Shown: positions 966 through 45,859 of the stretch, piece by piece
How the letters are laid out: every line of letters starts with the position of its first letter
Position numbering within the stretch: position 1 is the first letter of the stretch
NCBI GenBank assembly: GCA_947474645.1
Contig: CANJJD010000010.1
Location: 1-64,000 of the forward strand
Source: Alphaproteobacteria bacterium
GTDB taxonomy: Bacteria > Pseudomonadota > Alphaproteobacteria > Micropepsales > Micropepsaceae
DNA length: 64,000 nt
Direction of reading: 5' to 3'
The notes under the pieces: generated by a model
Databases searched by the model: none
What the model was told of the DNA's origin: nothing
Seen by the model: the letters and a program-made list of their open reading frames with translations, nothing else
Position numbers and translations under genes: made by a program

Positions 966-1053
966 CCGCGGCCGCTCGCCCAAGCTCGCGGCGTTCTTCG
1001 CTCTCGCAGGTCCACCGGACCTGCTCACGCGCTTTGCGCGCCGCTCCTCACTC
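966..1053 (-). repeat. Dispersed three-hairpin repeat, copy 1 (after hemJ)
   Basis: This is one of three related elements in the window (others at 10252-10341 and 45757-45842). Read leftward it begins TGAGGAGCGGCGC, and the TGA is the hemJ stop codon. Hairpin I is CGCGC-AAA-GCGCG, hairpin II is GCAGGTCC-GGT-GGACCTGC, and a conserved tail follows (AACGCCGCGAGCT...GCGAGCGGCC), itself able to pair GCCGC with GCGGC. It is in the same orientation as the gene it follows. Stem sequences differ from those of the 10252 copy but stay complementary. Confidence 0.8.
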
Positions 1054-8607: not shown

Positions 8608-9778
8608 GCAGCTTCTTGTCCTGGCGCTGCTGGCCGTGGCGGCGTGCAGCACCCCGCCGCCGCCCCCGCCCAAGCCGCAAACGACTGCGTCTCTCCATCT
8701 GTCCCGCGCCGGTTTTGCCGGTCTGCCGGAGTGGAACACGGCAAGCGCCGACGCGGCGCTCGCCGCCTTCCGGCGCAGTTGCGCAACACTCATGGCCAAG
8801 CCCGACACCGCGCCCATGGGTGGGGCGGGCTATGCCGGCACGGTGGCGGACTGGCGCGGCGCTTGCGCCGACGCAAACGGAGACGCCAAGGCATTTTTTG
8901 AAAAAACCTTCACGCCCTATGCGGTGAGCGGCAGTGCCCCTGAAAGTATCAGCTTGTTCACCGGCTATTACGAGCCGCAAATCCGCGGCAGCCTCATCAA
9001 GACAGGCGTCTTCCAGACACCAGTCCATGGCATGCCGCCCGACCTGGTGCGCGCCGATCTCGGCCTGTTCAATTCCAAGCTGAAAGGCGAACACATCTCG
9101 GGCAAGGTGGCGGGACACGCCCTGGTGCCTTATGCCGACCGCGCCCAGATCAACGCCAAGGGCGTGGACGCGCCGGTGCTGTTCTACACCGACGATGCGG
9201 TGACGTTTTTCTTCCTGCAGATCCAGGGCTCGGGCCGGGTGGTGTTCGAGGACGGCAGCACGGCGCGCATCGCCTATGCCGGCGAAAACGGCCAGCCTTA
9301 CACCGCCATCGGCCGCACCCTGATCGCCGAAGGAGCGCTGACGCGCGAGCAAGTTTCGCTGCAGACCATTCGCGCCTGGCTGCTTGCCAATCCTGCGCGC
9401 GCGGGCGCCGTGATGGAAACCAACCGCAGCTATATTTTCTTCGAACAAAAACCGCTGGGCGATACCGCGCTGGGCAGCACCGGATCGCAAGGCGTCAACA
9501 TAACTCCGCTGGGCAGCATCGCGGTGGACCAGCGCATCCACGCCCTGGGTGCGCCTTTCTATGTCGCCGCTGACGGGCCCGATCCGGTGCGCGCTGTAAT
9601 GGTGGCCCAGGATACCGGCGGCGCCATTCGCGGGCCGGTGCGCGCCGACATATTCTTCGGCTTTGGCGCCGAAGCCGAGCGCCGCGCCGGCGCCATGAAG
9701 GCGCCGGGCCGCCTCTATGTGCTGCTGCCCAATGCGCTGGCTTTGAAGCTGGGCGAGGGGCGCGACTATCCGCCATGA
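8591..9778 (+). CDS. mltA: Membrane-bound lytic murein transglycosylase A
   Basis: MltA cleaves glycan strands of peptidoglycan with formation of 1,6-anhydro-MurNAc. The protein begins with a lipoprotein signal ending LAVAAC-S, so it should be anchored by the Cys. The MltA domain is recognisable (LFTGYYEPQIRGS; YADRAQINAKG), followed by the 3D domain with MVAQDTGGAIRGPVRADIFFG near the C-terminus. The start is one of two adjacent ATGs (8591 or 8594) inside the end of the Tim44-like gene. The stop overlaps the next gene by ATGA. Confidence 0.93.
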   Translation: MMPRSKQLLVLALLAVAACSTPPPPPPKPQTTASLHLSRAGFAGLPEWNTASADAALAAFRRSCATLMAKPDTAPMGGAGYAGTVADWRGACADANGDAKAFFEKTFTPYAVSGSAPESISLFTGYYEPQIRGSLIKTGVFQTPVHGMPPDLVRADLGLFNSKLKGEHISGKVAGHALVPYADRAQINAKGVDAPVLFYTDDAVTFFFLQIQGSGRVVFEDGSTARIAYAGENGQPYTAIGRTLIAEGALTREQVSLQTIRAWLLANPARAGAVMETNRSYIFFEQKPLGDTALGSTGSQGVNITPLGSIAVDQRIHALGAPFYVAADGPDPVRAVMVAQDTGGAIRGPVRADIFFGFGAEAERRAGAMKAPGRLYVLLPNALALKLGEGRDYPP

Positions 9779-10254
9779 GCCGCCGCATCCTCAGCGACGA
9801 AGAGCGCAAGCTGTTCGAGCAGACTTTCAAGGAAGGCCGCCCGATCCGCGCCGCGCCGCCCAAGGCGTCCCTGAAAAAGAAAAGTGCGGTCTCCGGCACC
9901 ACGGGCGTCAATGGCGCCACCAATGACCGCCTTCGGCGCGGACTGATCGAGCCGGATGCGCGCATTGACCTGCATGGCATGACCCAAAGCGCGGCGCACC
10001 GCACCCTCTTCGCCTGGCTGGCCGCGGCGCATGCGCGAGGGTTTCGCCTGGTGCTGGTGATCACCGGCAAGGGCAATCCCAAGAATGGCGACGACGCGCC
10101 CTGGATGACGTCATCGCACGGCGTCTTGAAACAAATGGTGCCGCGCTGGCTGAACGAGCCGGAGCTTGCTGCACTGACGGCCGCCGTCACCCCCGCCCAT
10201 GCCAAACATGGCGGCGGCGGCGCGCTGTATGTCTATTTGCGGAAAATGCGATGA
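9775..10254 (+). CDS. Smr-domain protein
   Basis: This 159-residue protein has a basic, flexible N-terminus (to about residue 50) followed by an Smr domain: IDLHGMTQSAAHRTL, then LVLVITGKGN and the C-terminal YVYLRKMR. Smr domains nick nucleic acids, and in some bacteria resolve collided ribosomes or branched DNA; which applies here is unknown. Conserved neighbours (mltA, Tim44-like) match other alphaproteobacteria. It overlaps mltA by 4 bases and is followed at its stop codon by a copy of the three-hairpin repeat. Confidence 0.9.
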   Translation: MSRRILSDEERKLFEQTFKEGRPIRAAPPKASLKKKSAVSGTTGVNGATNDRLRRGLIEPDARIDLHGMTQSAAHRTLFAWLAAAHARGFRLVLVITGKGNPKNGDDAPWMTSSHGVLKQMVPRWLNEPELAALTAAVTPAHAKHGGGGALYVYLRKMR

Positions 10255-10341
10255 GTGAGGTGCGGTCCGGCGCAGCCGGACGAAATGGTCCAGCGGACCA
10301 TTTCGAGCAACGAACGCCGCGAGCTCAAGCGAGCGGCCGGG
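10252..10341 (+). repeat. Dispersed three-hairpin repeat, copy 2 (after smr gene)
   Basis: Starts at the TGA stop of the Smr gene (TGAGTGAGGTGCGG). Hairpin I is GTCCGGC-GCA-GCCGGAC and hairpin II is AAATGGTCC-AGC-GGACCATTT; both stems differ in sequence from the other two copies but keep full pairing. The tail AACGCCGCGAGCT...GCGAGCGGCCGG is conserved. Same orientation as the preceding gene. Confidence 0.8.
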
Positions 10342-10357
10342 GAAAGTGAACAGCAGC

Positions 10358-45006: not shown

Positions 45007-45759
45007 ATGGCGGCGTTCGATCTGACGGGAAAGGTTGCCCTGGTAACGGGCGGCAATGGCGGCATCGGGCTGGGCATGGCCAAGGGCCTGGCCGAAGCCG
45101 GCGCGACGGTGATGGTGGCGGGGCGCGATGCCGACAAGAACCGGCAAGCGGTGAAAGCGCTGGGCGCAAACGCCGACGCTGTGGCGGCGGATATGGCCGA
45201 GGAAGCTGGCGTGAAGGCGGTGGTGGCTGCGGCAGTCCAAAAATTTGGCCGCCTGGATATCCTGGTCAACAATGCCGGCATCAATATCCGCAAGCCCCCG
45301 CAGGACTATGTGATGGAGGAATGGCATCGGGTGATGAACATCAACTTGACCAGCCTGTTCGTCTGCTGCCAGGCCGCCTATCCGCACTTGAAGACCCGCG
45401 GCGGCAAGATCATCAATATCGGCTCCATGATGTCGATTTTCGGCGCGTCGTTCGCGGCGCCCTATGGCGCCAGCAAGGGCGGGGTGGTGCAGTTGACCAA
45501 GTCGCTGGCTTCCGCCTGGGCGGGCGATAACATTCAGGTCAATGCCGTGCTGCCCGGCTGGATTGATACCGAACTGACCAAGGGCGCGCGTGAACAGGTG
45601 TCAGGCCTGAACGAAAAGGTGTTGGCGCGTACGCCGGCGGCGCGCTGGGGCACGCCGGAGGACATGGCGGGGATCGCGGTGTTTCTCGCCAGCCCGGCTT
45701 CGGACTTCATCACCGGCACGGCGATTCCGGTGGATGGCGGGTACTCAGCGCAGGGGTGA
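45007..45759 (+). CDS. SDR-family oxidoreductase
   Basis: This 250-residue Rossmann enzyme has GGNGGIGLGMAKGL for NAD(P), NNAGIN, the catalytic Ser in NIGSMMS and Y-x3-K in PYGASKGG. The C-terminal GTAIPVDGGY is typical of classical SDRs such as gluconate 5-dehydrogenase or 3-oxoacyl reductases, so the substrate is open. The start is the ATG at 45007. A three-hairpin repeat starts at its stop codon. Confidence 0.9.
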   Translation: MAAFDLTGKVALVTGGNGGIGLGMAKGLAEAGATVMVAGRDADKNRQAVKALGANADAVAADMAEEAGVKAVVAAAVQKFGRLDILVNNAGINIRKPPQDYVMEEWHRVMNINLTSLFVCCQAAYPHLKTRGGKIINIGSMMSIFGASFAAPYGASKGGVVQLTKSLASAWAGDNIQVNAVLPGWIDTELTKGAREQVSGLNEKVLARTPAARWGTPEDMAGIAVFLASPASDFITGTAIPVDGGYSAQG

Positions 45760-45842
45760 GGAGCGGCGCGGCGAAGCCGCGTGAGCAGGTCCAGTGGACC
45801 TGCGAGAGCGACAAACGCCGCGAGCTAAGGCGAGCGGCCGGG
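45757..45842 (+). repeat. Dispersed three-hairpin repeat, copy 3 (after SDR gene)
   Basis: Begins with the SDR stop (TGAGGAGCGGCGC). Hairpin I is CGCGGC-GAA-GCCGCG, hairpin II GCAGGTCC-AGT-GGACCTGC, then the tail AACGCCGCGAGCT...GCGAGCGGCCGG. Same orientation as the gene. Closest to the copy at 966-1053. Confidence 0.8.
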
Positions 45843-45859
45843 CGATGCTAGAGCCAAGC

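Follow-up and report, generated by a model that had tools for sequence, protein, structure and literature searches.

The stretch of DNA analyzed here, referred to below as the window, comprises bases 1 to 64,000 of contig C10 of an alphaproteobacterial genome (G000; 2.64 Mb, 54 contigs). It holds three copies of a repeat family of ∼85 nt. A sequence-only reading of the window had already placed the three copies and claimed that each starts at or near the TGA stop of the preceding gene; sequence inspection and covariance-model matches confirmed the places and strands, and the relation to the stops held at all three genes (Table 1). The matches spanned positions 963 to 1052 (−), 10254 to 10345 (+), and 45755 to 45846 (+) of the contig, with E values of 1.7e-17 to 3.6e-21 that are not independent, since all three copies were among the 20 sequences used to build the model. 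A fourth copy lies on the same contig just past the window end (C10:65354).

Table 1. Coordinates of the repeat copies in the window and of their parts
Feature	Position	Strand	Remarks
Element copy 1	971..1051	−	5′ G at 1051, P4 end at 971; downstream of hemJ-like gene
Copy 1 TGA = hemJ-like gene stop	1048..1050	−	Gene 1048-1506, PF03653 (UPF0093)
Element copy 2	10255..10337	+	Between Smr gene (PF01713) and UPF0047 gene
Smr gene TGA stop	10252..10254	+	Gene 9775-10254; one base ahead of element TGAG
Element copy 3	45756..45838	+	Between convergent SDR and M48 peptidase genes
Copy 3 TGA = SDR gene stop	45757..45759	+	
Copy 3 P1 5′ strand, GGAGC	45760..45764	+	Pairs with 45808-45812, tandem G.A inside; from alignments
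Copy 3 P2 (hairpin I)	45766..45782	+	From alignment
Copy 3 P3 (hairpin II)	45783..45805	+	GGTCC-AGT-GGACC core, GA/GA at base
Copy 3 P1 3′ strand, GCGAC	45808..45812	+	From alignments
Copy 3 P4	45817..45838	+	GCCGC-GA-GC loop GC-GA-GCGGC

As the sequence-only reading had proposed, a covariance model was built, here from 20 copies, and used to scan G000 and its relatives. It identified 37 copies in G000 (51 matches at E ≤ 1, minus 12 antisense shadows and 2 weak rows with E values of 0.90 and 0.95); a plain DNA search found 25 places. Matches were obtained in 22 of the 61 genomes searched, G000 included, and copy number was patchy within the genus, with 0 to 54 matches per genome, counts that may include antisense shadows. 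A shorter form of the element gave one or two matches in 2 of 24 genomes from other families (G057 and G042). The hosts of the element are soil and freshwater bacteria and some phages.

Each unit consists, in order, of G-TGAG with the 5′ strand of P1, then P2, P3, the 3′ strand of P1, a GAA linker, and P4, so that the outer stem P1 encloses hairpins P2 and P3 and P4 comes after. In an alignment of 83 copies, 84.4% of the cells pair, compared with 27 to 36% when the partners were slid by one to three columns, and both sides had changed in 402 cells versus a shuffle mean of 110; because the copies were aligned by fitting them to the model, the pair counts of this alignment (A2) favor the structure. 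In 20 hand-picked copies, aligned with MAFFT and with the structure drawn from the alignment by hand, the corresponding numbers were 83 and 27.9. The stems thus covary, and the earlier suggestion that structure rather than sequence is kept was borne out. The fold is real, and covariation, not single-sequence folding, carries the case: folded as RNA, copies 1 to 3 gave z scores of −1.4, −3.1, and −2.9, with copy 1 missing the consensus, and folded as DNA they gave −2.3, −3.7, and −3.5, with the consensus recovered from copy 2 only.

Noncanonical pairs recur in the fold. Two adjacent P1 positions form tandem GA/GA in 37 of the 83 copies, are both Watson-Crick or wobble in 29, and take other forms in 17. 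At the base of P3, 30 copies have GA/TC, 23 have GA/GA, and 21 have AA/TT, and P4 retains GA/GA in 76. G-U pairs are rare (43 of 2,149 paired cells, counted by hand in the same alignment). In 57 of the 83 copies, GAA stands opposite the stop-like TGA and forms a T-A and two G.A pairs with it, which places TGA itself in the fold, at the base of stem P1. At C1:152458, P1 even reaches into the last codon of the gene, where TAC is paired with GTA. In some copies (L007, L020, L318, L223, and L228), an extra hairpin like GTCSATAGC..GCGTATSGAC replaces or precedes P4, which suggests module exchange.

Gene context was analyzed for 108 copies from five genomes (37/37 in G000, 28/33 in G025, 19/27 in G036, 14/14 in G001, and 10/10 in G018), weaker matches in G025 and G036 being omitted. 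Gene offsets in these genomes and in the viral contigs described below rest on a simple purpose-written codon-usage caller, and RefSeq annotation served for plasmids only. In 47 copies, the upstream sense gene terminated precisely on the TGA or TAA at the 5′ end of the element, and 15 more lay 0 to 6 nt past a sense stop, giving 62 of 108 at a stop or within 6 nt after it. The other 46 comprised 19 copies farther than 6 nt downstream of a sense stop, 14 after an antisense gene, 10 with read-in in another frame, and 3 inside called genes. The preference for stops in gene orientation noticed in the window therefore extends beyond it but is not universal. The histogram of sense-stop offsets had 47 copies at +3, 8 at 0, 7 at −1 to −4, and none at +4 to +16. 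Under a null of random intergenic placement computed in the window, 0.8% of copies would be exact and 3.5% would lie within −6 to +3, compared with 34/84 and 45/84 observed, an excess of ∼50-fold for the exact offset. Among at-stop copies with a called downstream gene, 34 were in tandem and 27 in convergent arrangement. The last residue was G, E, K, or V in 38 of the 47 exact copies versus 66 of 280 control genes, and the third base of the last codon was G in 39/47 versus 50/280. Only three of the 108 copies start with CGAG, none of them at a stop.

We compared orthologous places in near relatives for the Smr site, for 23 other G000 sites, and for 12 G001 or G018 sites. The G000 sites (23 of 37) were picked for a usable upstream gene; for G001 and G018, 14 of 24 sites were picked, mostly at stops, and relatives were obtained for 12. 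Sites were labeled as empty or filled by a loose pattern, which mislabeled a few copies as empty (G081 C4:41741, G072 C7) and wrongly scored one antisense copy (G001 at C10:45755) as present at a stop. Protein length was unchanged at 21 of the 22 exact sites having an empty relative, the exception being L319, where 11 residues were lost. The ancestral stops at empty sites were mixed (TGA, TAG, or TAA), with typical changes from GGC-TGA to GGG-TGAG, GAA-TAG to GAG-TGAG, AAA-TAA to AAG-TGAG, and GTT-TAG to GTG-TGAG. At the window sites, the hemJ-like gene ends in FGE-TAG (G061 and G001) or FGD-TAA (G072) in empty relatives, and the SDR gene ends in GGC-TAA (G001) or GGT-TGA (G081) in relatives without a copy at that stop. 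Some junctions departed from the typical changes: CAC became CGG at L306, turning the last residue from His to Arg, TAC was kept (L310, C1:152458), and the stop was retained at L308 and L311, where TAA became TAG-TGAG. The changes fit an element whose 5′ G-TGAG is attached directly behind the first two bases of either the last codon or the stop.

The Smr stop was free of the element in all 29 congeners examined besides G000, and in near relatives the gene ends in an overlapping ATGA. In G080, a copy lies ∼13 codons into the following UPF0047 gene, interrupts the start of that gene, and carries a second P4-like unit (L120). This copy and the one at C8:2369 are the two copies away from stops for which a relative is clearly empty, and neither has TRR at the junction.

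The 5′ junction was constant and the 3′ junction ragged, ending in P3 or P4, at P4, or with an extra tail of ∼7 to 20 nt. The 3′ end lies after P3 at L319, at a CGCC common to the target, inside P4 at L311, and at P4 at L304 and L308, with ∼5 target bases lost; tails of ∼17 to 19 nt are present on L306 and L318 (tail lengths and target losses were judged by eye). At L304, L308, C14, C15, and C34, the right flank resumes at the old stop or no more than ∼5 nt from it, so no spacer was lost there. Direct repeats were found at three copies: a perfect one of 10 nt at L312, one of 13 nt at C1:63576, and at C8:2369 a longer imperfect one that includes 9 exact nt; a 17-nt word shared at G025 C1:69928 is hairpin sequence and was excluded. 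In the 62 of 108 copies with both ends recognized, the longest word shared by the two flanks averaged 5.37 nt versus 4.86 nt after permutation and reached at least 8 nt in 6 copies versus 0.85.

In the convergent gap at C10:45755, the G000 copy sits at the stop of the left gene, and the G081 and G001 copies sit exactly at the stop of the right gene; these are independent insertions. At C3:74652, the same gene end is occupied in G000, G081, G001, and G072 by copies with different P2/P3 sequence classes (L172, L170, L173, and L043), which may reflect replacement, gene conversion, or repeated insertion. Copies of G001 or G018 that are missing from near relatives already lie on stops, in a sample chosen largely for being at stops, which gives no unbiased rate.

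The element also occurs outside the genus, with full-length copies both on plasmids of Rhizobium and in phage contigs. In several Rhizobium species, BLAST located the unit on plasmids, directly behind a gene for the substrate-binding protein of a sugar ABC transporter and ahead of the permease gene. Of 389 matching records, 11 plasmids were read: 7 were filled, with GGG followed by TGA or TAA, and 4 were empty, with GGC followed by TGA or TAG. The seven filled copies matched the covariance model with E values of 4.6e-11 or better, and 18 of 31 matching plasmid records, a number of which come from near-identical strains, kept the position. In RefSeq annotation, queF of R. leguminosarum ends exactly on the element TGA, as does a tripartite tricarboxylate transporter binding-protein gene of Neorhizobium. 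The stop-replacement rule thus recurs in Rhizobium. Another rhizobial site lies in a divergent promoter region (two records), and a partial Paracoccus copy is intergenic. Rhizobium intergenic regions also contain a mini element without P2 and P3 (L361, 1651-1705; L362, 1685-1737; L367, 619-672), beside which stand palindromes (CTTCTCCCC...GGGGAGAAG) that resemble RIME repeats.

The element is present on nine IMG/VR contigs, three of which (L355, L357, and L360) look near-identical. On eight it follows a gene resembling that of the terminase small subunit, with an offset that is exact in 3 and −3 in 5, and on the ninth it lies within a called gene. PHROGs, applied to one small and one large subunit, identified the small terminase subunit of L352 and the large one of L353; the other neighboring proteins look similar to these by eye. 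The INPHARED phages yielded only a 20-nt match.

The family has the broad features of REP-like repeats: it consists of dispersed, mostly extragenic palindromic units, present in many copies and patchy between relatives. More specific signatures were sought in the 62 of 108 copies with both ends recognized. GTAG, the tag of one REP class, stood no more than 6 nt from the 5′ end in 3 copies, the logo of that end being GTGAG, and close to the P4 end in 1 copy. CGTC, which together with a CCA-like tail marks another class (PMC3733652), occurred near the P4 end in 2 copies and never at the 5′ end, and the 3′ tail was variable rather than CCA-like. There were no terminal inverted repeats of the MITE kind in these copies, whose ends share words of 3.60 nt (3.60 when shuffled) with a positional identity of 0.29 versus 0.28. 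Nor was there a fixed-length target site duplication: three copies have exact repeats of 9 to 13 nt, and others have none or a small loss. Rfam gave no match in the window, and four loci searched at E ≤ 1 gave one weak match off the element.

No Y1 transposase of the RAYT family (PF01797) was found in G000. Of the 61 genomes of the genus sample, 18 have this family, but among the 14 copy-bearing genomes just 3 do, each with at least 6 matches, and G018 has none; we therefore rejected it as the resident mobilizer, as it is missing from 11 of 14 and shows no tie to copy number. A retroelement or reverse transcriptase (PF00078) mobilizer was rejected on the same count, being found in 3 of the 14 copy-bearing genomes versus 6 of 13 genomes without matches. 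One reverse transcriptase gene of G000 (C8:57437-57988, L346) lies ∼2 kb from an element copy at C8:59834.

Genomic islands that insert in tRNA 3′ ends bring an incoming end that restores the function of the site entered. The present unit differs in having no integrase or cargo and in using a protein stop instead of a tRNA end. E. coli REP/BIME repeats occur in operons such as malE-malF, between binding-protein and permease genes, with possible 3′-end protection; the present element differs from them in sequence, size, and 5′-end rule, and the RAYT family was not found in G000. PMC5082802 makes related statements on REP roles in mRNA 3′-end protection and notes that E. coli REPs located up to 15 nt from a stop are reported to stall ribosomes, and PMC3733652 ties E. 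coli REPs to RAYT.

According to PMC3733652, the termini of GTAG REPs often supply a TAG stop to neighboring ORFs, the CGTC REPs of S. wittichii lie close to 3′ ends, and CGTC REPs, the prevailing class in the alpha division, have no transposase dedicated to them. Our element resembles these two classes as a dispersed palindromic repeat of Proteobacteria near gene 3′ ends (PMC3733652, in part) but has three to four hairpins in ∼85 nt, a closing stem, tandem G.A pairs, and a 5′ GTGAG, and it replaces the stop together with the last wobble base. The pneumococcal BOX, a modular repeat, supplies the stop of 36 CDSs without clear truncation; it differs in host, sequence, and modules, and the portions of PMC3049150 consulted mention no exact-offset or empty-site analysis. 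Br-REP1 of Bradyrhizobium is alphaproteobacterial, has three palindromes in 3′ UTRs, and is transcribed; its central-stem consensus CCGGAATCTCGAGATTCCGG is unlike P3 by eye, and the available sections of PMC5082802 do not give it as one closed multibranch fold. That a repeat can supply a stop is thus already known from GTAG REPs and BOX. We found no description of the present family in the open-licence PMC text searched, and in the parts of that text consulted we met no precedent for a multibranch fold with tandem G.A, for replacement of wobble base plus stop with empty sites, or for the spread through Rhizobium and phages.

We consider it likely that the family is a new REP-like mobile palindromic repeat and that its 5′ end regenerates the stop of the gene it enters. 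Movement is shown by the constant left and ragged right junctions, the absent or variable target repeats, and the independent insertions in one convergent gap. The sequence-only reading had offered a mobile REP-like unit that targets TGA. Its mobile part stands, given presence and absence at orthologous sites and patchy copy number in addition to the independent insertions, but its target does not: the ancestral stop was TGA, TAG, or TAA, and it is the element that brings TGA, its 5′ G usually replacing the wobble base. We thus rejected TGA as a DNA target. The unit inserts in sense after a mostly purine-purine dinucleotide (GG, GA, or AA), which very often consists of positions one and two of the last codon. 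The element G then serves as the wobble base (39/47) and TGA as the stop, which keeps protein length whatever the prior stop, and usually the last residue too. In the mechanism we propose, an enzyme recognizing a sequence like RR^N-TRR would make the 5′ junction, and purifying selection would remove most insertions in genes. Gene ends would be a safe site because the 5′ end of the element rebuilds the stop, much as islands that target tRNA genes regenerate the 3′ end they enter. Points against this reading are the failure to find a mobilizer, the lack of TRR at both junctions away from stops that have a clearly empty relative, the 46 of 108 copies located elsewhere than at stops, and the changed last residue at L306 and the 11 residues lost at L319.

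The bias toward purine-purine ahead of the junction, seen as G, E, K, or V last residues, points to a sequence preference; protein conservation alone is insufficient for it, since A, L, S, P, and T, for which NNG codons would also be silent, are underused. A model combining the target motif with purifying selection predicts 13 to 18% of copies at stops versus 55/88 observed. This shortfall implies that intergenic sites are mostly closed, that stops attract directly, or that at-stop copies are functionally kept. Accordingly, purifying selection acting on insertions at any stop-like trinucleotide or at an RRN-stop motif, which accounts for 13 to 22% at stops, was rejected as the whole explanation and kept as part of it.

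Functional retention is the core of a reading that we judge unlikely, in which insertions are random and those starting at a stop are retained by selection as cis-acting 3′-end RNA elements, for mRNA 3′-end protection, limited downstream expression, or termination coupling. The sense orientation and exact stop position agree with it, as in the gap between the sugar ABC substrate-binding-protein and permease genes of Rhizobium, a position conserved among the plasmid records, several of them near-identical. So do the stop codon within P1, the structure retained under sequence change, and the C3:74652 gene end occupied in four species with different stem sequences; the literature also assigns such roles to REPs (PMC5082802, in part). 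However, the G001 and G018 copies absent from near relatives are already on stops, in sites chosen largely at stops, so that very long retention is not needed. The scarcity of G-U pairs, which are not rare in most RNA families, and the copies after antisense genes, more than 6 nt past a stop, in another frame, or inside genes also argue against it. RNA effects, of the kind that the sequence-only reading had offered as its other option, are nevertheless plausible for the mobile repeat that we prefer: in the transcript, the unit would open the 3′ UTR and could affect mRNA 3′-end stability, read-through, or termination.

A bolder possibility, which we regard as doubtful, is that insertion reads the translation stop signal and not a fixed DNA word, as any stop, in frame and in sense, would be replaced by G-TGA with length unchanged in three settings (the genus, Rhizobiaceae, and tailed-phage terminase operons). 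If true, the element would be inserted by the translation stop rather than by DNA sequence. A scheme in which translation termination itself specifies insertion, element RNA joining the mRNA at the stop and the chromosome then receiving a copy of the product, is very improbable. All three stops are used with exact frame, no truncations of 1 to 5 residues were observed (1 of 22 exact sites is cut, by 11 amino acids), and the 5′ junction is constant and the 3′ junction ragged, as this route would have it, but PF00078 is absent in 11 of 14 copy-bearing genomes, copies also lie after antisense genes and in a divergent promoter region, and the purine bias of the left flank suggests a sequence preference. 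Finally, chance crowding of short gaps in a gene-dense genome (∼62 intergenic nt per gene), with elements brought against stops by spacer deletion, can practically be dismissed given the excess of exact offsets over the null, and a spacer-deletion ratchet is disfavored by the right flanks at empty sites.

The stop-restoring mobile repeat that we favor sharpens a loose remark in the literature, that some REP and BOX repeats supply stops, to a rule that is exact enough to be tested and is backed by empty-site controls from two lineages of bacteria. The family is also a concrete handle for seeking the mobilizer of palindromic repeats that lack a known transposase, and the rhizobial copy, in an annotated operon of culturable strains, makes both the movement and the RNA-effect readings testable at the bench.

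Other repeats were observed at some of the gene ends compared. A different palindromic repeat (GTCGCGCGTGCTCACG...GCGCGACGCT) follows gene ends that bear the element in G000 or G001 (L168, L191, and L341; G072 and G081), and a G016 repeat that by eye is like TGTC/CGTC-type REPs (TTGTCATGGCCCGC...GCGGGCCACC) lies at two of the compared ends (L174 and L194).
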